64,000 bases of DNA from an uncultured Psychrobacter sp. (GTDB taxonomy: Bacteria; Pseudomonadota; Gammaproteobacteria; Pseudomonadales; Moraxellaceae), in contig CANLXO010000001.1 in assembly GCA_947495055.1 (NCBI GenBank), positions 186,001 through 250,000 of the forward strand, written 5' to 3'. Positions 795-61,042 of the stretch are shown in pieces (position 1 is the first letter of the stretch; each line of letters opens with the position of its first letter). Below the pieces are notes generated by a model. The model was not told the DNA's origin. It saw nothing but the letters and a program-made list of their open reading frames with translations, and searched no databases. The position numbers and the translations under genes were made by a program.

Positions 795-1592
795 TCATTG
801 GCTCATCTCTTCAATATCACCTAATGTAAGACCAATTTCTTGGGTGCTAAAGATAGTAATGCCTTTATCGTCGATTTTACCATTCATGACCAATCTACCA
901 ATGCGATTACTTGCTTCTTGATTACCTTGATCGGCGGCTTTTTTATACCATTCAAATGCTTTTTCGTAATCTTGTGGCACGCCTTGACCTTGTTCATAAA
1001 GGTCACCAAGATTAAATTGTGCGAGACCCACGTCTTGTTCAGCAGCTTTTTTGTACCACTCAAAAGCTTTAGTATAGCTTTGTGTGACGCCTCTACCAAA
1101 ATAGTACATCGTGCCAATATTGTTTTGAGCATTAAAAGATCCATTATCAGCTGCTAATAAATACAATTGCATGGCTTTTTCATAATCCTGATCAATACCT
1201 ACTCCACTTCCATACATAATACCGAGACTAAATTGAGCATCAGCGTATCCTTGGTTGGCTGCTTTTTGCATCCATGCAAATGCTTTTTGATAGTCCTTTT
1301 CTGTTCCCAGTCCGTCATGATACATCAGACCTAAATAGTGCTCAGCAGGAGCATAGCCTTGATCGGCAGCTACTTGAAATAATTCAAAAGCTTTATCATC
1401 GTCTTCAGGAACGGAGTCGCCCTCGTAGTAGGCCAGTCCAAGCTCGTATGTTTGTTTAGGATCATTTTGCTTTACTGATTCAGTGATATTTAAAGATTCC
1501 GCTGAGCAAGCTGAAACGGTTAAGCCGACTGATAGCGTCGTAGCTAATAATAAAGACTGAGTTAAGTGATTTAGGCTTTTTAGATCCATCAA
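795..1592 (-). CDS. Sel1-repeat lipoprotein
   Basis: A 265-residue protein. The N-terminal signal peptide ends in a lipobox (VSAC), with Cys at about residue 29, so it should be a lipoprotein anchored in the periplasm. From about residue 47 it consists of five Sel1-type tetratricopeptide-like repeats of about 36 residues (pattern LG..Y..G.GV..D...A..W...AA.QG). Such repeats form helical solenoids for protein binding. The second Met is an equally possible start. It follows the three paralogous lipoproteins of the PAAR block with only an 18-base gap, so it is probably cotranscribed with them. A role as accessory or immunity protein for the PAAR effector is inference from position. Confidence 0.85.
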   Translation of the reverse strand: MMDLKSLNHLTQSLLLATTLSVGLTVSACSAESLNITESVKQNDPKQTYELGLAYYEGDSVPEDDDKAFELFQVAADQGYAPAEHYLGLMYHDGLGTEKDYQKAFAWMQKAANQGYADAQFSLGIMYGSGVGIDQDYEKAMQLYLLAADNGSFNAQNNIGTMYYFGRGVTQSYTKAFEWYKKAAEQDVGLAQFNLGDLYEQGQGVPQDYEKAFEWYKKAADQGNQEASNRIGRLVMNGKIDDKGITIFSTQEIGLTLGDIEEMSQ

Positions 1593-1610
1593 ATTCTCGT
1601 TAAAAACTAT

Positions 1611-2180
1611 TTATTGAATAGGCTGATTCGGACTGACTTGCTCATAGCTTTTACCCTCTGGTACAGGTATGCAATTGACCTCTTTTTGCGACTCAGTAGG
1701 CTTGCAGTAGGGCATGCTATCTACATATTCAAATACGGTTCCATAGCGATGTATACCGTCAGTTAATGGTGTTAAGTAAATATTGCCCATATCAATAGTA
1801 ACGAGAGTTTTTAGGTCAGTACTTTTAGATGGTACTATGCCATCAATTGCGAACAGACGTCGCTGATAGCCTTGCGTATCGATCATAATATTAGCGTCTT
1901 TAACTATAGCTTTAAAATAATCTGCGCCCATCTCATCTGTATCTATCTTTTGCATAACAGGTAGCTCAAAGCGACCTTTGTCATCAGAGGTGCCTTGAAT
2001 GTCATCGGTTAAGTAAACCGTAATATTGCTCAGGGGCTGGTCGGTTTGTCTATCAATGAGTTGACCCTTTATAGAGGGCGTCACATAGAGCACTTCAGGC
2101 TCTTGCGCAGTACAAGAAGTGGTTACCAACGCTGTCAGACAAACGATACTGAACAAATTGATTTTATTAAAGATCTTCAC
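1611..2180 (-). CDS. Lipoprotein with carboxypeptidase-regulatory-like fold, paralog 3
   Basis: A 189-residue lipoprotein. The signal peptide ends with TTSC (Cys about residue 23). A segment then resembles the transthyretin/carboxypeptidase regulatory-like beta sandwich (GQLIDRQTDQPLSNITVYL, then DDKGRFELP). The C-terminus carries the paralog signature C.P.ESQKEVNCIPVP with two cysteines that may form a disulfide. The start is GTG, supported by GGAG six bases upstream, and it overlaps the preceding paralog by 14 bases, indicating translational coupling. It is the most divergent of the three copies. Its function is unknown; it is a candidate immunity protein for the upstream PAAR-metallopeptidase because of location, export and tandem duplication. 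Confidence 0.8.
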   Translation of the reverse strand: MKIFNKINLFSIVCLTALVTTSCTAQEPEVLYVTPSIKGQLIDRQTDQPLSNITVYLTDDIQGTSDDKGRFELPVMQKIDTDEMGADYFKAIVKDANIMIDTQGYQRRLFAIDGIVPSKSTDLKTLVTIDMGNIYLTPLTDGIHRYGTVFEYVDSMPYCKPTESQKEVNCIPVPEGKSYEQVSPNQPIQ

Positions 2181-2694
2181 GGTTTACTCCATCTGGCACA
2201 GGAATGCAATTTACTTCTTTTTGTGACTCATTTGGCTGACAAAAAGTCATATCCTCTATATATTCTTCATACTTATAACTATCTTCTATTTTTACATTAT
2301 TTGGCAATGGCGCTAAATACACTCTACCCATATGGATATATTCAGGTACTTCAGATACGCTTACTACTTTTATTCTCGAGATACCAAAATTTGAGTATGT
2401 TTTACCTTTATAGTTTTCTTTATTAATGACAATATCCATTTCACTCAACTCTCCGCTATCAGCAGTATGTCCATCACTAGTAATCGCAGGAAGCTTAAAA
2501 TAACCTTCTTTATCAGTTGTCGTATAGGTATTGCTGGTATACAGAACATTAGCATTGCTAATCGGTTGGTTATTTTGACTATCTAATATTTGCCCAGTAA
2601 CAATAGGAGTTAAATAGTGCTTAGTGGTAGGTTCTGCTTGACAAGCAGTCAATGAGATAGATAGCAAACATAATCCAGCTAATAATATTTTCAT
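2167..2694 (-). CDS. Lipoprotein with carboxypeptidase-regulatory-like fold, paralog 2
   Basis: A protein of about 175 residues. I chose the start at 2694 (MKILLAG) rather than 2748, because it begins a clean lipoprotein signal (LTAC lipobox) and lies two bases after the stop of the previous gene. The mature protein begins QAEPTTKHYLTPIVTGQ and shows the beta-sandwich signature (DKEGYFKLP). It ends with the shared C-terminal motif FCQPNESQKEVNCIPVP. It is most similar to paralog 1 (2697-3242): the lipobox, the HYLTPIV/YYLTPIV segment and the C-terminal motif are nearly identical, while the middle differs. That pattern suggests duplication with diversification of a binding surface. Confidence 0.82.
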   Translation of the reverse strand: MKILLAGLCLLSISLTACQAEPTTKHYLTPIVTGQILDSQNNQPISNANVLYTSNTYTTTDKEGYFKLPAITSDGHTADSGELSEMDIVINKENYKGKTYSNFGISRIKVVSVSEVPEYIHMGRVYLAPLPNNVKIEDSYKYEEYIEDMTFCQPNESQKEVNCIPVPDGVNREDL

Positions 2695-2696
2695 GA

Positions 2697-3242
2697 CTAG
2701 TTGGCGCTTACCTGTTCGTAAGTCATACCATTTGGCACAGGAATGCAATTCACTTCTTTTTGTGATTCATTTGGCTGACAAAACGTCATATCTTTTATAT
2801 ATTCATCTTCGACATCATTGGTGCTTATACCAGTAGGTAATCTTTCAAGGTATATTTTGCCTATATGAACGTATTCAGGTACTTCAAAAGACCTGCTTAT
2901 TTTAATTCTTGGAAAGCCAAAGTTTGAGTAATATTTTCTTTTATAGGTTTCTTTGTATACTGACATACTGCTCTCACTTAATTGATTTAATACCCAGTAG
3001 TCAGGCGAAGAAGATACATTATATTCAATAGCAGGCAATCTAAAAAAACCATCTTTATTCGTTTCAACAAACTCTTTACTGGTGTAAATAATAGTCACTC
3101 CACCGAGAGGTTTACCAGTATTTTTATCCAATACTTGACCAGTAACGATAGGCGTTAGGTAGTACTTAGTAGCAGGCTCTGCTTGACAAGCAGTAAATAA
3201 CGCTATGACTGAATATAATCCAGCTAATGATTGTATTTTCAT
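2697..3242 (-). CDS. Lipoprotein with carboxypeptidase-regulatory-like fold, paralog 1
   Basis: A 181-residue lipoprotein (signal peptide, FTAC lipobox, Cys about residue 19). The mature part starts QAEPATKYYLTPIVTGQ. It carries a carboxypeptidase-regulatory-like segment (LDKNTGKPLGGVTIIYTS, then NKDGFFRLP) and the C-terminal two-cysteine motif FCQPNESQKEVNCIPVP. Its start codon lies two bases after the stop of the PAAR-metallopeptidase gene, the usual place for a cognate immunity gene. Periplasmic anchoring would suit an effector that acts in the periplasm. No catalytic motif is seen. The immunity role is inference. Confidence 0.83.
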   Translation of the reverse strand: MKIQSLAGLYSVIALFTACQAEPATKYYLTPIVTGQVLDKNTGKPLGGVTIIYTSKEFVETNKDGFFRLPAIEYNVSSSPDYWVLNQLSESSMSVYKETYKRKYYSNFGFPRIKISRSFEVPEYVHIGKIYLERLPTGISTNDVEDEYIKDMTFCQPNESQKEVNCIPVPNGMTYEQVSAN

Positions 3243-3244
3243 AA

Positions 3245-4738
3245 CTAACCTCTACTGACTAATGGCACAATCTTAATCATTGATAACCATAAAAAACTAC
3301 GCACATCTTCTTCACTAGCTACAGCTTTATCATATATGTCTAATGGACTTCTTTTAGCATATTTCATTAGATCATATTCATTGCCTATGTTTTGATAGGT
3401 GCCATTAACTTTTTGTGTGGTAACCGTAGAAGAACCTTTATGTCCTTTTGAATAGCTATGGCCGCCATAAGCTAATAATATGTCATGGCCTAATTCATGA
3501 GAAAAAGTTTTACTAAATGCCTCTTTTGCGTCAGTCTCGGTAATATAATCCCAACGATTTGGATATTTAATATATCCTACATTGTAGTATACGATTCGAG
3601 ATAATTCCCAATTCCTAGAGCGCGCGATATTAGTATTAGTGTTAAACTTGATATCGACTTTATTTAGACTATTATTTCCAGTTATTTCACAAGTTGTAAA
3701 AACTTCATATTTATCGCCATTTAAATCAATACCAATTGGGTGATTTTGTTTACCCATTAAGGTACTATTGTTGCGACTCCAATAACGGCTTACGCTTTGT
3801 TTCGCCAATGATTTGATCTCATTATCCGTTATATTTATTTTCTCGATTATGGGCTTATTATTATGTCTTTTAATCTCAGCTGGAGGTACTAAAGGTATCA
3901 GTCTTCTCTTTTCAACATGTACTTTGCTGATCTCCGAAATAGCAACTCGTAGATTGACATCTATTCTCTTGGTACTTCTATTAATTTTTATATCTAGCCA
4001 ATCACATTGTTTATACTCAAATCTATGTTGACTACTGTGCTTGTCTTGACCTCCTTTGCTATTCGTTCCTATAACCGTAAATTCAACCTTATCTTTAGTA
4101 AACCATGTACTATCGTATTTGTCCTTAATAAAACCATCCCATATTATATCGATAGAATCATTTGCATTAAAACTACCAGTCTTTGTGGCTATCTCCATGT
4201 TGTTCATCAAGACTAATAACTTAGTGTAGCTACCCTTAGCTATATTAACCGTTAGTTTAATCTTATCATTAGCCACTTTAGAATCATAACTGGATGGTTT
4301 AAGAGGAGCGAATTCATTACTATGTGCCATCTCAACACGACCCATCCTAATCATAAATATCTCATCAGATTTAGGAGCCAAACTAGCAAACAAAGCATCA
4401 GGATCAGATTTAGGGAACTGTAGAGGGGCGGGTTGTTCGAATGTTGGCTCTGGCTGCTCAACCCCAAACACTTCAAAGTCTGACTCTGCAAATGACTGCT
4501 GAATAGCAATGAGGGTGGCGCCGCAACTTGTCATATCACCGCCGCGGGCAATCGGTGCACCGTCTACAATAAAGGACGGATCGCCTGTGAGAATAGTAGT
4601 GACTTTTTTACATTTTTTGCAAATGACTTTATCGCCTTTACGAGAGACTTGTACACCGTTATGGGTGGTATAAGGTGATCCTGTAATCACTTTACCGCCA
4701 TGTGTGGTAGTTGCGCCTACTGTGATATAAGCTGCCAT
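3245..4738 (-). CDS. PAAR-domain protein with zinc-metallopeptidase-like C-terminus (probable T6SS effector)
   Basis: A 497-residue protein. Residues 1-80 form a PAAR domain (repeated VxxxGxPV-like turns, KKCKK and TSCGA cysteines, VDGAPIARGGD). PAAR proteins cap the VgrG spike of type VI secretion systems and often carry toxins. A linker (about 85-130) leads to a beta-rich middle region (about 145-250). The C-terminal region contains HELGH at 414-418, followed by further histidines at 427 and 433 and an EYDLMKY segment that could supply a Met-turn, as in zincin metallopeptidases. No VgrG or other secretion gene is in the window, so this is an orphan effector locus. The coding region is more AT-rich than the neighbouring tkt, which fits horizontal transfer. 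PAAR assignment is firm; the peptidase is likely; the target is unknown. Confidence 0.85.
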   Translation of the reverse strand: MAAYITVGATTTHGGKVITGSPYTTHNGVQVSRKGDKVICKKCKKVTTILTGDPSFIVDGAPIARGGDMTSCGATLIAIQQSFAESDFEVFGVEQPEPTFEQPAPLQFPKSDPDALFASLAPKSDEIFMIRMGRVEMAHSNEFAPLKPSSYDSKVANDKIKLTVNIAKGSYTKLLVLMNNMEIATKTGSFNANDSIDIIWDGFIKDKYDSTWFTKDKVEFTVIGTNSKGGQDKHSSQHRFEYKQCDWLDIKINRSTKRIDVNLRVAISEISKVHVEKRRLIPLVPPAEIKRHNNKPIIEKINITDNEIKSLAKQSVSRYWSRNNSTLMGKQNHPIGIDLNGDKYEVFTTCEITGNNSLNKVDIKFNTNTNIARSRNWELSRIVYYNVGYIKYPNRWDYITETDAKEAFSKTFSHELGHDILLAYGGHSYSKGHKGSSTVTTQKVNGTYQNIGNEYDLMKYAKRSPLDIYDKAVASEEDVRSFLWLSMIKIVPLVSRG

Positions 4739-11116: not shown

Positions 11117-11920
11117 TTAAAAATCTAGCGGCATAGTATGTTGATCTTGATTGGCAATTTGGTTGTCTGTTTGCGTCTCTTGAGTGATATCAGCAAGCTC
11201 AGCGGCTAATGTCTGCTCATCGATAGTACGCAGCGCATCACTAATGACCGCTTTTGATATATTACTACGACCCAGATTTGAGAACATGGGCTGTATGTAA
11301 ACCAAGACCTCTATTAACGCGCCGATACGATGCGGGCCTTCGCTTAGTAAATGATGGAGTATACGCTCATCAAACTGCCAGCCGCGGCGACGAAGAATGG
11401 ACTGCAATAGCGCTTGGCGATCCGCTATGTTTTGCCCATCAGGTACCTTGAAAGTCGGCGCTTGTGCCAACCGCGTCAGCAAGTCTCTGAGCTCAAAGGG
11501 CAGCTCGCTTGCAGGCTTATTGGCTGCAAATAATAGCTGGCGCTGTCCTTCACGGCTACGATTGATCAGATGAAATAGTGCCTCTTGCCACTGACGGCTT
11601 TGCTCTAACACCTCTAGATCATCGATAGCAATGACATCGAAATTCTCCAAAGAGGACAGTACATTGACATCGGTATGAATCAGCTCGTTCAAAGATAAGC
11701 AAATTGCAGATTTGTCCATATCAATGAACGACTCACAAATGGCGGAGAGCAGATGCGACTTGCCAGTAGCAGGACTACCAAACAGATACAGCTGCCCGAT
11801 CAGACCGACATGCAACTGCCGTACTGCATCGATAATTGACATCCAACCTGGACCTGAAAAGTCGCTAAGGCTTGCATCGTGCTTGATGTCTAGATTGAGA
11901 CTTAGCTGTGATTGGGCCAT
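11117..11920 (-). CDS. hda: DnaA regulatory inactivator Hda (DnaA-like AAA+ ATPase)
   Basis: A 267-residue DnaA homolog without the DNA-binding domain. The N-terminus QLSLNLDIKHDAS resembles the clamp-binding motif QLSL-F by which Hda joins the beta clamp. Walker A is GSPATGKSHLL and Walker B is IDDLEVL. Hda with the DNA-loaded clamp triggers hydrolysis of DnaA-ATP and so prevents re-initiation of replication. The conserved neighbour perM lies upstream on the same strand, 267 bases away, as in related gammaproteobacteria. The C-terminus is about 30 residues longer than in E. coli and polar. Confidence 0.92.
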   Translation of the reverse strand: MAQSQLSLNLDIKHDASLSDFSGPGWMSIIDAVRQLHVGLIGQLYLFGSPATGKSHLLSAICESFIDMDKSAICLSLNELIHTDVNVLSSLENFDVIAIDDLEVLEQSRQWQEALFHLINRSREGQRQLLFAANKPASELPFELRDLLTRLAQAPTFKVPDGQNIADRQALLQSILRRRGWQFDERILHHLLSEGPHRIGALIEVLVYIQPMFSNLGRSNISKAVISDALRTIDEQTLAAELADITQETQTDNQIANQDQHTMPLDF

Positions 11921-12187
11921 TGCTCACCAACTTAAGTTTGCGCTATACCCCATATGCTATATAGAGATAGACGCTAAATGTTTCATAGTTTTGATTGCTC
12001 TATGAGTCACATCCTTGTTTGCCATAAACCAGTAAAATTGCTAATCCATTTGTCTAAATATCGCTATTGTCACCACAAGCAATGATAATCAGACACTGCG
12101 CCTATATATACCATATTTGCAAAATGACTGACAAGTCCTTTCACCGTTATACTTGCCAAGTCACTACATTGGCATCCAAAGCTTGTG

Positions 12188-13321
12188 CTATTTTTTTTCA
12201 AATAACTCTAACTGCTTACGTCCTTTATAAAAGTCTGTAGTTAGATAATAGCCATACAGATGACGAAACAAGACATTAAGAACCGCTGATACTGGTAGTG
12301 CGATAAGCATCCCAACGAACCCTAATATACTAGCGCCTGCCAATACCGAAAAGATAACCCATAGCGGCGATAGACCGATTTTGTCACCTAATAGTAATGG
12401 CTGTAATACATAACCTTCAACCGCTTGCCCTACCAAGAACGCGCCTGCGATCAGCGACAAATAAAACCAGTCAAAGCCAAACTGAAAGAGACCGGCAATG
12501 ATAGCGGCGATAAAACCCAAACCAAACCCTAAGTAAGGAACGAAGCTGGCAACGCCGGCTAACATCCCAATAGTGAGCCCAAGCTCCAGCCCTATTAATT
12601 GTAGCTGCACCGCGTACACTACCCCCAAGAGCACCATAACCAGCAGCTGCCCCTTTACAAATTCCATGAGCGCGCGATCACACTCTTGAGCGATGCCAAT
12701 GACTTTTTTGCTATAGGCGGCTGGTATCGCCATCTTCCAACTATGTAGACGCTTATCCCAGTTGAACAAAAAATAAAACGTCAAAATAGGAACTAAGACA
12801 ATCAAGCCGGCGTTATTGACAAAGCTCATACTCGAGGCAACGAGTTGACTCATCCAGAGGCTGGCATCAGAGATGTTGTAATGCGTCTGCATATACTCAA
12901 CCAAAGTATCAGAAAAACCGCTGACCTCTAACGCGGGCATAACGACATTGGTATTGGTACTAAACCAGTCTCTTACCACATCGTTGTACCAGCTTATAAC
13001 CTTTGGCAAATACTCCCAAGCAGATTGCAACTGATGCCATAGCGTAGGTATAAGCCACCACATTAGTATTGCCATACCAGTCGTAATCGCTGTATATACC
13101 ACAATAATCGCAATCCAGCGTCTGACATACTTAGACAATCTTTTGACTAAAGGGTTGAATAAATAGGCGAGAATAAAAGCGACAAGAAAGGGGATAATCA
13201 CTGGCGTCAATAAGTACAAAAGTAGTAGTGAGACTACGATAACAGTAACTAAAAACAAACGCCGAAAAAAGGGATCTATAGGCTGGGTAATCATTGATCG
13301 TAATCCTACGATTAAGCTCAT
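12188..13321 (-). CDS. perM: AI-2E family transporter / PerM-type permease
   Basis: A 377-residue integral membrane protein with about eight hydrophobic segments: two near the N-terminus (about 22-60), one near 70-90, and a C-terminal set with the family signature (VASFVPYLGFGLGFIAAII and GDKIGLSPLWVIFSVLAGA). This is the AI-2E/PerM exporter-like family; substrates are poorly defined. It is divergent from purM-purN and upstream of hda, the classical arrangement. A second start (MITQPID) lies nine codons in. Confidence 0.88.
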   Translation of the reverse strand: MSLIVGLRSMITQPIDPFFRRLFLVTVIVVSLLLLYLLTPVIIPFLVAFILAYLFNPLVKRLSKYVRRWIAIIVVYTAITTGMAILMWWLIPTLWHQLQSAWEYLPKVISWYNDVVRDWFSTNTNVVMPALEVSGFSDTLVEYMQTHYNISDASLWMSQLVASSMSFVNNAGLIVLVPILTFYFLFNWDKRLHSWKMAIPAAYSKKVIGIAQECDRALMEFVKGQLLVMVLLGVVYAVQLQLIGLELGLTIGMLAGVASFVPYLGFGLGFIAAIIAGLFQFGFDWFYLSLIAGAFLVGQAVEGYVLQPLLLGDKIGLSPLWVIFSVLAGASILGFVGMLIALPVSAVLNVLFRHLYGYYLTTDFYKGRKQLELFEKK

Positions 13322-56316: not shown

Positions 56317-58554
56317 ATGAACATAATCGACCAAGGTATTACTGAAGGAATTATCCGCCTTGACGATGACAGAAAAAATGTTTACTACTGTCATCAAGAA
56401 AATAAACGTAGAAATTATAATAACCCTGAAGAACAAGTTCAAGTAGAAGCTTATCTTAAATTAATCTTCTCTTACGGCTATTCTGTCAATCGTATTAGAC
56501 TATTTGTCAGCGTCACAATGGGTGTCTCTACTAAAGAGGCTGATATTGTCGTCTATGATGACGATGAATGCACGAAACCAATAATCATCGTTGAATGCAA
56601 AAAGGAAGAGGTATCAGAACTTGAGTTTGAACAGGCTGTGAAGCAAGCATCAAGTTATGCGTATGCTCTCTCTGGAACGGTTAAGTACCTTTGGATCACT
56701 TCAAAAATTAAGAGTAAATATTGTCTTGTCGATAAAGATAGTGACGTTGTGCATACTATTCCAGATATTCCAAGATTTGGTATCACAGAAGTACAAAAGT
56801 TTAAGTACGCTAAAGGTGGTAGAAAAGAAAACGAAGATCCTGAAAACAATGAAATCAAGCAAAAATATTTTGAGCTAAAAACGGTATCAGAAGATGATCT
56901 AACCAAAGCGTTTAAACAAGCTCACAATTCTCTCTGGGCAGGTGGTCAGCTTAATCCATCAGAAGCATTTGATGAGCTAGATAAACTTATTTTTTGTAAA
57001 ATATGGGATGAAAGATTACCTAGAAAAGTTGGTGAACCTTATCACTTCCAAGTCTTTAATGAGTCCATACCCAAAAATGCTACCAAAGAGCAACGCAAAA
57101 AGGTAGAGCAAAAAATAGCTGATGATCTTTATAACCGAGTCGTCGCTATATACGCTGAAGGTAAGAAAAAAGATCCTGAAGTGTTTAAAGACGATATCAG
57201 ACTTGATACTAATAAAGTTAAAACAGTCGTGGGCTATCTTGAGTCTATTAATCTAAGCGAAACGGATTTAGACAGTAAAGGTAAAGCGTTTGAAACCTTC
57301 ATGGGTAGTTATTTTAGAGGTGACTTTGGTCAATACTTTACGCCGAGACCTATCGTTAAGTTTATCGTAAACGCACTACCGATTACTCACGACTCTAAAG
57401 TGTTAGATACCTCATGTGGCAGTGGTGGTTTTTTACTATACGCTTTGGATAAAGTACGGACTGAGGCTAATGCTCTATATCCAGAGTATTTAACTAACAA
57501 TCGCGAGTTTACTAACCACTATAGACACTGGCATGACTTTGCTGAAAAGCAGCTCTATGGTATTGAGCTTAATGAACAAATTGCTCGTACTGCTAAGATG
57601 AATATGATCATCCATGATGACGGTCATACCAATGTCATCTCATCAGATGGTTTACTTCGTGCAGAAGTTATGCGAGAGAGAAGCGGCAGAGATGGTTTTG
57701 TGTACGGCTCATTTGACTTTATTATCACTAATCCTCCGTTTGGAAGTTCCGTTAAGCAAACTGAAAAAGCCTATTTGCATCAATATAATTTAGGTATCAA
57801 AGATCTAGACTGGCTTGATAAAAGCTATAGAGCAGATTATGACAAGTTTAGCGATTCTAATATTAAGAAATTAGGTAAAAGTAATCAAAGTACCGAGGTG
57901 CTATTTATTGAGCAGTGTTGGAACTTCCTTGATGAAGGAGGATATCTAGCCATTGTGCTTCCAGATGGCGTACTCACTAACAGTAGCTTGCAATATGTCA
58001 GAGATAATATTGAAGAATGGTTCAGAATAGTCGCTGTCGTCTCTATGCCTCAAACAGCGTTCTCTCATACGGGCGCAGGCGTCAAAAGCTCTGTATTGTT
58101 CTTACGTAAATGGAGCAAGGAGACCACTGAACAATTCCAAACGCTAAAGCAAAACTTGCAAACTCAAGTAAGAAATGAAAACCATTATTTAGTAGAAGTA
58201 GCTAAAATAGAAAATGAGAAAAAAGCAGCTATTAAAGATCATAATGGCTTTGAAAATACTACTGGCCAAAAAAATGGGAAAAAGTCTATCGAGAAAACCG
58301 AAGTATTTAAGCTATGGAAAAAAGAAACTGGTGAATACTATAATCAGAAAATTAGCGATCTAAAAGATGAATTAAGCGACATCTATATGAAGAAGAAACA
58401 AGAAGCGCTACCTGATTATCCTATATTTATGGCAATAGCTGAAGACATTGGCTATGACGCGACAGGGAGAGAGACAGGTAATAATGAGCTGGAGTTTATC
58501 GGTCAAAAGCTCGTTGAGTTTATCACTCATATTAATGCGGGTGAGTCGATATGA
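56317..58554 (+). CDS. Adenine-specific DNA methylase with N-terminal nuclease-like domain (restriction-modification)
   Basis: A 745-residue fusion. Residues about 35-130 resemble the HsdR N-terminal PD-(D/E)XK nuclease: Glu44 in EAYLKL, Asp76 in EADIVVYD, Glu93 and Lys95 in IVECKKE. A helical region (about 190-330) leads to an N6-adenine methylase core: GQYFTPRPIV, motif I DTSCGSGGF (364-372), GIELNEQIARTAKMN, and catalytic NPPF (472-475). The C-terminal 150 residues are charged and helical, typical for contact with a specificity subunit. No helicase motor is present. This is a type IIB/IIG or BcgI-like arrangement rather than classic type I. Its stop overlaps the hsdS start by four bases (ATGA). 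Confidence 0.88.
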   Translation: MNIIDQGITEGIIRLDDDRKNVYYCHQENKRRNYNNPEEQVQVEAYLKLIFSYGYSVNRIRLFVSVTMGVSTKEADIVVYDDDECTKPIIIVECKKEEVSELEFEQAVKQASSYAYALSGTVKYLWITSKIKSKYCLVDKDSDVVHTIPDIPRFGITEVQKFKYAKGGRKENEDPENNEIKQKYFELKTVSEDDLTKAFKQAHNSLWAGGQLNPSEAFDELDKLIFCKIWDERLPRKVGEPYHFQVFNESIPKNATKEQRKKVEQKIADDLYNRVVAIYAEGKKKDPEVFKDDIRLDTNKVKTVVGYLESINLSETDLDSKGKAFETFMGSYFRGDFGQYFTPRPIVKFIVNALPITHDSKVLDTSCGSGGFLLYALDKVRTEANALYPEYLTNNREFTNHYRHWHDFAEKQLYGIELNEQIARTAKMNMIIHDDGHTNVISSDGLLRAEVMRERSGRDGFVYGSFDFIITNPPFGSSVKQTEKAYLHQYNLGIKDLDWLDKSYRADYDKFSDSNIKKLGKSNQSTEVLFIEQCWNFLDEGGYLAIVLPDGVLTNSSLQYVRDNIEEWFRIVAVVSMPQTAFSHTGAGVKSSVLFLRKWSKETTEQFQTLKQNLQTQVRNENHYLVEVAKIENEKKAAIKDHNGFENTTGQKNGKKSIEKTEVFKLWKKETGEYYNQKISDLKDELSDIYMKKKQEALPDYPIFMAIAEDIGYDATGRETGNNELEFIGQKLVEFITHINAGESI

Positions 58555-59969
58555 GAGAGTATAGTTTAGATAGTAACGCTGATAATATTTTTTTGATTAA
58601 TTTTTCTGAGCTAAAAGAACGTTTTGATCCAATTTACTACACAGACGTTTTAACTTATTTAAACAAATCCAGTTATGAAAAGTTCAAGTTGAATGCTCTA
58701 TGCTACAGTTTTACTTCGGGTTTTGGTGCTGGCGGTAATGATCAAACAGATGAACAGAACGGTATTATTCAGATTAGACCTACAAATTTAGATAATGATG
58801 GTAATTTAATTTTCAATCGAAATATTTATGTCCCTAACGATAATATAGGTAGTAAGTTTATCGTTGAAAATAATGATATTCTTTTTAATAATACAAATAG
58901 TCAGGAGAGAGTAGGGAAAACTGCAATAGCTGAAGATATTGGGGATAATATATATACTTTTTCAAACCATATCACTAAATTTAGAGTGAGAGAAAATTTA
59001 GTATTACCAAAATATCTATTTATTTTATTAAATTTATATCAGTCTCGAAAAATATTTTATAGCATCTGTACAAATTGGAATAATCAGTCAGGTGTAGGCT
59101 TAGATTTATTAAAGAAACTTATAATCCCTGTGCCACCTAAAAACAAGCAACAGTTAGTAGTCGATTGCTATAACAAAGCTTACCAAGCTAAACAGCACAA
59201 AGAACAAGAAGCCAAATCACTTTTATCTAGTATTGATGACTACTTATTAAGTGAGTTAGATATTAAGTTGCCAGAAATTAATAATTCGCTTAACGAAAGA
59301 ATTTTTACAGTTAAATTTAGCGATATAAGTAATGAAAGAATAGACCCTTTCTTCAACAATCCAAGCTATATTAAGTTTTCTGAGGATTTAAAAAACCACT
59401 CGAAACTCAGTGAACTTATAATAAGTATAACTAAAGGAGAGACACCTCTCTGGCGTGGCGATAATTATGTAAAAGAAGGGATCCCACTTCTTCAAGTAAA
59501 CAACTTATCTAATAAAGGAATTGATTCGAACTTCAAACTTATACCTACAGAAGTACACAGTAGGATGCACAGGTCTAAACTATTTGGTGGTGAAGTTCTC
59601 TACTCTATGGCTGGAACCATCGGTATCGCAGTATTGAATAATCTTCAAACTGAGGCTAATATTAACCAAGCTATTGCAAAAATAGTGGTAGATGAAGAAG
59701 CAGTAAACAAACTATATTTGATCGAATATTTAAACTCTACGTTAGGTAAGATTCAGGCAAAAAGATACTTAACAGTATCATCACAACCAAACATAAACTT
59801 TGGTCAAATTAAAGATATAAGAGTCATATTACCTTCTAAGGAAAAACAAGTCCGAATAATTGAACACATACTAAGTATTAGAAAAACCGCACAACAGCTT
59901 GAACAAGAGGCTGATGACATTATGGAAAACTCTAAATCAGAAGTTGAGAGGTTAATCTTAGGTCAATGA
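58551..59969 (+). CDS. HsdS-type specificity subunit
   Basis: A 472-residue DNA-recognition subunit with two target recognition domains. TRD1 is about residues 15-195 (with IQIRPTNLDNDGN and ending in PPKNKQQLVV), followed by a helical spacer (about 200-235, NKAYQAKQHKEQEAKSLL). TRD2 is about 255-435 (LLQVNNLSNKG, NINFGQIKDIRVILPSKEKQ), followed by a second helix. This two-half architecture binds a bipartite site. AT-rich compared with neighbouring core genes, suggesting transfer. Overlaps both neighbours by four bases. Confidence 0.9.
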   Translation: MREYSLDSNADNIFLINFSELKERFDPIYYTDVLTYLNKSSYEKFKLNALCYSFTSGFGAGGNDQTDEQNGIIQIRPTNLDNDGNLIFNRNIYVPNDNIGSKFIVENNDILFNNTNSQERVGKTAIAEDIGDNIYTFSNHITKFRVRENLVLPKYLFILLNLYQSRKIFYSICTNWNNQSGVGLDLLKKLIIPVPPKNKQQLVVDCYNKAYQAKQHKEQEAKSLLSSIDDYLLSELDIKLPEINNSLNERIFTVKFSDISNERIDPFFNNPSYIKFSEDLKNHSKLSELIISITKGETPLWRGDNYVKEGIPLLQVNNLSNKGIDSNFKLIPTEVHSRMHRSKLFGGEVLYSMAGTIGIAVLNNLQTEANINQAIAKIVVDEEAVNKLYLIEYLNSTLGKIQAKRYLTVSSQPNINFGQIKDIRVILPSKEKQVRIIEHILSIRKTAQQLEQEADDIMENSKSEVERLILGQ

Positions 59970-61042
59970 GTATTATAAAAATTCAAATCAATCATACTGA
60001 GAATATTCCTAAAGAAAAATTAGCTTTTCATCTTTATGATGAAATTGGTGAAGAATATGATATTTCTGAAGATGATATAGAAGACTATTTCAATATTGAC
60101 TATGTTTTGCAGCTTCCTAATGATTCTTTTGTTACTATCTTTACTTTGGACTTCCCTACTCTAGCTGTGCGAGACATTGAACTTAAAGACGTCTTAAAAT
60201 CTTACTTAAACACTCTGCGAGATTTGGAAGAAGTAGAGAATGTGGTAAAACTTCAAGATGAGATACTACAGGAAATTGCACTTGAATATTATAAATCGCT
60301 CTTCTCAATAGAAATGGAACTAAGAAATGTACTAACCTATATACTGACCTATGATGAAAAACCTATCGTTTCAGATACCTTTAAAGATTTCGGAATAGAT
60401 AAAGCTCAAACCTTCACCGGTAGTGATATTTTGGATAGACATGAAAACGGCCTATTTTATATATTATTCAATCATTACGGTAGCTTCACTGAGCCTAAAA
60501 ACCTAAAGGCTGAGAAGATAGCAGAGTTATTACAAGATGTTAGTATCAGCGATTACACAGAGTTTAAAAATAGAATTCAATCAAGATACATTAGTTGTGA
60601 TAGACATAGCCAGTTTTTATACTCAATAAAGCAGAAACTAGATCCTCTTGAAAAAATGCGCAACGCTGTGATGCATATAAGAAATTTGTCAGACTCTTTA
60701 ATAACTAATTTCGAGAATGCTATAGATGATGGTCATCAAGGTAAAGGAGTAAGTACGCTTATAAATGATTTTTGGCAATCTGAGGCTCTTTGTTTAAATG
60801 AGTCAACTTGGCGTAGCTTGGCTGTAAAAGAGTTATCCAAATTCAATACGGATGAAATTCTTAGAGATGATCAAAACAATTTCGACGATAGAGAAGACGT
60901 TATAGATTATATCGTTGATGAAATTAATAGCAAAGTTGATATATCGGACTTTGAACCGTCTGATGACGATTTTGATGAGCTAAGAAATTTACTTAATTCA
61001 GAATCATCAGACGTCCCAAGCTCCTCCCAACATGAAAATTAA
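59966..61042 (+). CDS. Unknown protein with HEPN-like R-x4-H motif, in the restriction cassette
   Basis: A 358-residue acidic protein that I do not recognise as a named family. After a beta-rich N-terminal part (1-70), a long helical region contains an EMELRNVLTYIL helix (116-127) and later EKMRNAVMH with R232-x4-H237. That pair of features is typical of HEPN ribonucleases (Abi, Swt1 and related toxins). The last 60 residues are highly acidic (Asp/Glu/Ser). Translation is coupled to hsdS by an ATGA overlap, so it belongs to the cassette. An RNA-cleaving backup function is inference; a structural role is also possible. Confidence 0.75.
   Translation: MSIIKIQINHTENIPKEKLAFHLYDEIGEEYDISEDDIEDYFNIDYVLQLPNDSFVTIFTLDFPTLAVRDIELKDVLKSYLNTLRDLEEVENVVKLQDEILQEIALEYYKSLFSIEMELRNVLTYILTYDEKPIVSDTFKDFGIDKAQTFTGSDILDRHENGLFYILFNHYGSFTEPKNLKAEKIAELLQDVSISDYTEFKNRIQSRYISCDRHSQFLYSIKQKLDPLEKMRNAVMHIRNLSDSLITNFENAIDDGHQGKGVSTLINDFWQSEALCLNESTWRSLAVKELSKFNTDEILRDDQNNFDDREDVIDYIVDEINSKVDISDFEPSDDDFDELRNLLNSESSDVPSSSQHEN

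Follow-up and report, generated by a model that had tools for sequence, protein, structure and literature searches.

The window analysed here is a 64,000-nucleotide stretch of contig CANLXO010000001.1 from an uncultured Psychrobacter sp. (whose genome totals 2.93 Mb over 47 contigs), and the element in question is a restriction-modification (R-M) operon whose third gene encodes a probable HEPN protein. Three tandem open reading frames (ORFs) of 745, 472 and 358 amino acids occupy positions 56317-61042; features of this operon are given in window coordinates, and all of them lie on the + strand. Gene 1 (56317-58554) encodes an HSDR_N-type nuclease fused to an N6-adenine methyltransferase, as assigned by Pfam and alignment, gene 2 (58551-59969) encodes an HsdS-like specificity subunit with two target-recognition domains (Pfam, PADLOC), and gene 3 (59966-61042) encodes the probable HEPN protein, with an isoelectric point (pI) of 4.34 and a net charge of -41. 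The original prediction, made from the letters of the window, described the three genes as coupled by four-base ATGA overlaps, and re-reading of the ORFs placed ATGA at 58551-58554 between genes 1 and 2 and at 59966-59969 between genes 2 and 3. An internal promoter serving gene 3 was considered and rejected, promoter-like matches being no commoner than in shuffled sequence. Gene 3 is probably translationally coupled to the R-M genes.

The nuclease-methylase fusion and the following two-domain specificity subunit, both proposed at the outset, were recovered by domain searches. In gene 1, Pfam HSDR_N_2 matched residues 37-152 (1.8e-16) and N6_Mtase matched residues 319-631 (9.5e-35); gene 2 contained two Methylase_S stretches (Pfam) and matched Specificity_I of PADLOC (4.5e-43). 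Gene 1 was used to scan the genome_contigs collection. Of 455 candidate stretches, 438 were confirmed, and the 80 best loci, with ORFs called by a simple script, serve as the relatives referred to below. The nuclease residues D76 and E93-C-K95 (56542-56601), which we take to be of the PD-(D/E)xK type, were conserved in all but one of the 81 rows of the alignment, that row having a gap, and the methylase motifs CGSGGF and NPPFG (57415-57744) were conserved in all 81. No helicase family was found by Pfam in genes 1-3, the genome beyond the cassette not having been searched for hsdR. Relatives of gene 1 exist in the same genus (genome G044 and locus L066 of Psychrobacter pygoscelis), and 4 of 72,556 plasmid records matched at 1e-60; phmmer found no gene 3 at the plasmid loci holding gene 1 relatives (L004-L007). 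The DNA of gene 1 gave no match in E. coli genomes. Five gene 1 relatives (L029, L030, L035, L037 and L060) were 1,141-1,209 amino acids long and, judging by length alone, may carry nuclease, methylase and specificity parts in one polypeptide.

Gene 3 had been described as an unrecognised protein, and neither Pfam (no family near cut-off, best E 0.11) nor NCBIfam gave a significant match. The protein was divided into a predicted ferredoxin-like domain (residues 1-97; 59966-60256), a probable HEPN domain of the Abi2/Swt1 kind (residues 98-290; 60257-60835), assigned by hhalign to HEPN_Swt1-type profiles, and an acidic tail with a net charge of -17 (residues 291-358; 60836-61039). The R232-NAVM-H237 motif and the segment EMELRNVLTYIL pointed out originally are both present. 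According to published work on HEPN domains (PMC3710099), the signature consists of Rx4-6H with a polar residue (N, D or H) after the arginine, plus an upstream Ex3[KR]. Gene 3 has both, with N following R232 in R232-N-A-V-M-H237 (60659-60676) and with E116-x3-R120 upstream (60311-60325). Four full-length members of the family were available, namely the window protein and three homologs 41-44% identical to it. E116-x3-R120 and R232-N-x3-H237 were invariant in all four, as was the methionine of the latter motif; poor conservation of R232 and H237, which had been named as a sign against a HEPN protein, was not observed. By itself the R-H motif is weak evidence, since 627 other ORFs from the fetched loci, 208,443 residues in all, contained R[ND]x3-4H 38 times, or about 0.065 times per 358 residues. 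It is more than a chance occurrence here, because it is invariant in the four members together with an invariant upstream Ex3R. The acidity is likewise shared, with pI values of 4.34-4.65 in all four members, net charges of -34, -30 and -28 in the homologs, and tail charges of -17, -15, -13 and -12 in the four.

Profile comparisons pointed in the same direction. The window protein weakly matched PADLOC PDC-M34B (E 0.0033, residues 221-255), and none of its three homologs did. Five PDC-M34B matches from other genomes were fetched and four of them were examined, all four being HEPN_Swt1 proteins over the Pfam cut-off. When a profile of gene 3 residues 93-300 was aligned to these four proteins by hhalign, scores of 33.9-34.8 were obtained (E 2.5e-4 to 1.2e-4), compared with best values of 20.4 for 150 column shuffles, 19.6 for 12 control families and 19.7 for reversed columns. 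Against 12 Swt1-type sequences the score was 28.1 (best of 200 shuffles, 19.8). The alignment placed R232-H237 onto the R-x4-H of the Swt1-type proteins. With both motifs invariant and the HEPN_Swt1 match above all shuffles, the HEPN assignment of the original prediction was supported: the product of gene 3 is very probably a HEPN protein, of the kind seen in Abi2 and Swt1, and is likely to have RNase activity.

Homologs of gene 3 were found by phmmer at 2 of the 80 loci (L011 and L013, both Sulfurovum). The contig of L014, read as L090, stops 26 codons into the start of gene 3, immediately after hsdS, and a further copy (L091) came from a profile search across the family of the L013 genome, so that five copies were found, one in the window and four in Campylobacterota. 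Gene 3 immediately follows hsdS in all five, at -4 bases in the window and L013, -1 in L011 and L091, and 0 in L090. One of these, L091, was located via gene 3 alone. Genes 1 and 2 of L014/L090 are separated by a further gene that is DinD-like by eye, and gene 3 still comes after hsdS there. The linkage of the third gene to restriction genes was supported, and the searches made did not turn up homologs lying mostly away from such genes, which had been named beforehand as a counter-indication. With window gene 3 as the query, its own copy was the only match in its genome (1/1), genus (1/105) and order (1/293). Profiles of gene 3 matched 3 of 348 in the order of genome G391, 4 of 175 in its family, 1 of 44 in the family of G720, and 1 of 274 in the class of the window, the last being again the genome's own copy. 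One of the four matches in the G391 family (G827, L092) was partial and chance-like (E 0.009, residues 247-349); that match apart, the taxon-wide searches gave no convincing copy away from hsdS. Gene 3 gave no match in 72,556 plasmid records, in 50,697 phage records or, in two scans, in viral contigs. When genome_contigs was scanned by peptide pattern, none of 120 stretches was confirmed; gene 3 is nevertheless present in that collection, at L011 and L013, so a scan of this kind is insensitive here.

A gene 1 tree of 81 rows, built by a quick method, placed all four gene 3-bearing rows within one 10-row clade, with a Shimodaira-Hasegawa-like approximate likelihood ratio test (SH-aLRT) value of 93. 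They did not form one branch there: the window row paired with Xanthovirga (89), and rows lacking gene 3 after hsdS (L008, L009, L021 and L029) were interspersed, the contigs of L010 and L012 ending too early to show the position. In the Campylobacterota branch (SH-aLRT 99), gene 3 was present in 3 of the 3 rows readable past hsdS. The scatter of gene 3 rows in the tree points to probable transfer of the trio between phyla, in the course of which gene 3 was gained or lost.

The position after hsdS was also examined as a slot in its own right. A same-strand gene of at least 100 amino acids began within 60 bases in 34 of the 80 relatives; in the others, the next gene was farther away (17), on the opposite strand (14) or short (3), the contig ended (6), or no S subunit was found by the script (6). 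Among the 34 slot genes, Pfam results taken from 25 of 48 families listed included Zeta_toxin (4), HEPN_Apea (2), Fic, RhuM, TIR_2, DUF3800 and a FokI-type nuclease (one each), as well as AAA families. Of the 34 slot proteins, 8 contained R[ND]x3-4H, and of 627 other ORFs, 37 did (Fisher p 0.0012); with the two gene 3 homologs removed, the slot count was 6 of 32 (p 0.014). The R-M family of gene 1 often has effector-like genes after hsdS, some of them HEPN, and this variable slot is a practical place to seek further effectors. ApeA-type HEPN genes of Bacteroidota occupied the slot in L024 (5954-7318 of that locus) and L085 (11581-12957) and stood second after hsdS in L071 (13470-14819); an ApeA-like protein was encoded 147 bases beyond hsdS in L067, and L075 gave a sub-threshold HEPN_Apea match. 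The ApeA-type genes beside this R-M family are an independent pairing of HEPN proteins with the enzyme. A related R-M pair in P. pygoscelis (L066) carries a different third gene of 500 amino acids (11522-13021), which had a sub-threshold nucleoside-deoxyribosyltransferase match and weak TIR-effector and DpdB matches. Several relatives encode, between genes 1 and 2, a protein of about 500 amino acids that resembles it by eye. In four Methylococcales loci (L034, L041, L059 and L079), a 190-amino-acid gene with a common start containing a P-loop follows hsdS; these were taken as the four Zeta_toxin slot genes, the Pfam scan itself naming no loci.

The closest precedent is described in PMC3710099: the R-M enzyme of PrrC-PrrI keeps the RNase inactive, and its defeat by a phage releases the RNase. 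The same paper links at least 16 HEPN clades to R-M systems, proposes release from inhibition as a general logic, and places Abi2 within R-M operons and a Swt1-like group (Ava_2192) in an operon with R-M components. The trio resembles PrrC-PrrI, where a type Ic R-M system guards a HEPN anticodon nuclease, in having a HEPN-type protein within an R-M operon and in the proposed role of that protein as a second line once the R-M enzyme is defeated, as the paper puts it for PrrC. It differs in that gene 3 has no ABC ATPase domain and begins with a predicted ferredoxin-like domain, and in that the operon has no separate translocating HsdR, its nuclease being fused to the methylase. The absence of the ATPase part of PrrC had been noted at the outset, and no ATPase family was found in gene 3 (Pfam, NCBIfam) or in its L011 and L013 homologs (Pfam). 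Membership of PrrC was rejected on these two absences. The PrrC type of logic fits gene 3 by analogy, with neither an ABC ATPase nor an operon-encoded translocating HsdR. The original prediction was supported as to HEPN identity and R-M linkage; its novelty is reduced by the HEPN genes already published as neighbours of R-M systems. No description of the trio of nuclease-methylase, hsdS and gene 3 was recognised in the literature searched.

Gene 3 has the Ex3R ... R-x4-H layout of HEPN_Swt1 proteins, including the PADLOC candidate PDC-M34B, and a short profile match to them at the catalytic helix. It falls short of the HEPN_Swt1 Pfam model, only the window protein of the four members matches PDC-M34B, and the PDC-M34B genes of L094 and L095, unlike gene 3, adjoin a DUF5343 gene (both partners tested), with no hsdS in the stretches read. 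The PDC-M34B HEPN_Swt1 genes of L094-L096 each have an upstream partner; in L096 the partner is DUF5343-like and a downstream ORF is TIR-like, both by eye. The ApeA-type genes share with gene 3 a place in or near the slot after hsdS (L024, L085, L071, L067), whereas gene 3 belongs to another HEPN family, has another N-terminal domain and shows no detectable sequence relation to them. In BcgI a single polypeptide combines nuclease and methylase, the S subunit is separate, and the enzyme cleaves on both sides of its site. Genes 1 and 2 divide the labour in the same way, a likeness of architecture and not of compared sequences, and the window operon differs in having a third gene. Genes 1 and 2 also match the MAD2 and MAD5 models of MADS, and membership was rejected at 301 of 720 and 79.8 of 400 bits, far under the NCBIfam cut-offs. 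An MNT-type toxin-antitoxin pair was rejected as well, Pfam finding no nucleotidyltransferase in gene 1 or gene 2.

We propose, giving the idea about an even chance, that the R-M enzyme of this operon is backed by a HEPN RNase, which forms a second layer that arrests growth and is held by the R-M complex, a scheme in which we infer the fold, the RNase activity, the contact and the trigger. In the first line, the nuclease-methylase fusion and the S subunit would cut DNA in a helicase-free manner. In the second, gene 3 would cleave host or phage RNA and so arrest growth once DNA cutting had been blocked or overwhelmed. Contact with the R-M complex, most plausibly with its S subunit, would most likely keep the RNase inactive, and disturbance of the complex would release it. 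If so, the PrrC idea of an RNase firing on sabotaged restriction would extend to fused nuclease-methylase systems that lack a helicase, with no ABC ATPase. No dedicated model of the small protein family to which gene 3 belongs was found in Pfam, NCBIfam or PADLOC, and a guarded HEPN toxin of this kind would be testable with just three genes. A more specific and improbable version is that gene 3 is a DNA-mimic-docked guard, whose strongly acidic surface would dock onto the nuclease-methylase/S complex at its DNA groove, with the RNase inactive there and displaceable. A phage DNA-mimic anti-restriction protein filling the groove, or saturating unmodified phage DNA, would then displace gene 3 and set the RNase free, and the operon would constitute an ATPase-free and translocase-free trap for anti-restriction proteins.

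Several results weigh against the HEPN part of this proposal and leave a small chance that the resemblance is accidental and gene 3 an unrelated helical protein. The profile match to HEPN_Swt1 proteins spans just 30-36 columns at 27-55% probability, below the 75-98% that PMC3710099 reports for its HEPN families, and the background frequency of the R-H motif points the same way. Curated HEPN models miss gene 3 (Pfam in three of the four members, NCBIfam in the window protein). The full structural model had a mean predicted local distance difference test (pLDDT) value of 66.5 and was usable for residues 1-97 only; its C-terminal region was helical, with block pLDDT values of 49-86, and that domain modelled alone was poor (pLDDT 44). 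PDB structure searches matched the N-terminal domain only, Foldseek returned nothing at E 0.001 from PDB and BFVD, and no HEPN chain was among the 50 matches listed by VIA, whose effective coverage was residues 1-101. Single-sequence hhalign showed no link of gene 3 to ApeA, the best probability apart from gene 3 homologs being 8.6%, for a control; HEPN_Apea and ApeA_NTD did not match gene 3 at E 1 or the L011 and L013 homologs at E 5. Three PDB sequence matches (E 0.2-0.3) and the best PHROGs match (E 0.021) were treated as chance. Against an accidental resemblance stand the invariance of both motifs in all four members and a profile score exceeding 150/150 and 200/200 shuffles. It is similarly unlikely that gene 3 is a regulatory or RNA-binding R-M subunit with no RNase activity and a merely structural HEPN-like helix. 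The strong acidity of all four members would suit such a subunit, and PMC3710099 reads HEPN domains without the motif as non-catalytic RNA binders. The same paper predicts motif-keeping HEPN domains to be RNases, however, and gene 3 keeps R, N and H; its acidity is compatible with an RNase, one of the four Swt1-type proteins checked (L095) also having a pI of 4.65.

The strongest competitor, possible although we lean away from it, is that gene 3 is independent cargo in a defence-gene slot: a HEPN abortive-infection gene that needs no partner, answers to a trigger of its own and is neither restrained nor sensed by the R-M enzyme. The variability of the slot, filled by diverse families in 34 of 80 relatives and by a different third gene in L066 of the same genus, agrees with this reading. 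Two further observations count against a guarded RNase: three of the five copies lay on contigs retrieved via gene 1, which biases the linkage count in part, and the methylase clade of the window includes rows lacking gene 3 after hsdS (L008, L009, L021 and L029), from which it follows that the R-M pair can do without it. The cargo reading stays alive because of the variable slot and these same-clade members. Free cargo should occur alone too, but no copy away from hsdS was found (the chance-like G827 match apart), and in L014/L090, where another gene lies between genes 1 and 2, gene 3 nonetheless follows hsdS. A functional link between gene 3 and the R-M complex is favoured because gene 3 comes after hsdS in every copy found and the reading frames overlap.

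The base composition of the cassette differed from that of its surroundings, with a guanine-plus-cytosine (GC) content of 0.342 versus 0.436 in the remainder of the window. A GC content as low was reached in 2 of 297 cassette-sized sliding windows, those over the cassette itself being counted. This fits recent acquisition, and the operon was probably acquired horizontally; no attachment-site repeats stood out in the flanks of the cassette. Elsewhere in the window, positions 795-4738 on the - strand include a gene for a 497-amino-acid protein that, read by eye, has a PAAR-like repeat at its start and a metalloprotease-like HELGH. Three alike small lipoprotein-like genes and a Sel1-repeat-like gene lie downstream of it in a low-GC patch, and the region resembles a type VI secretion effector locus in which the immunity genes are repeated.

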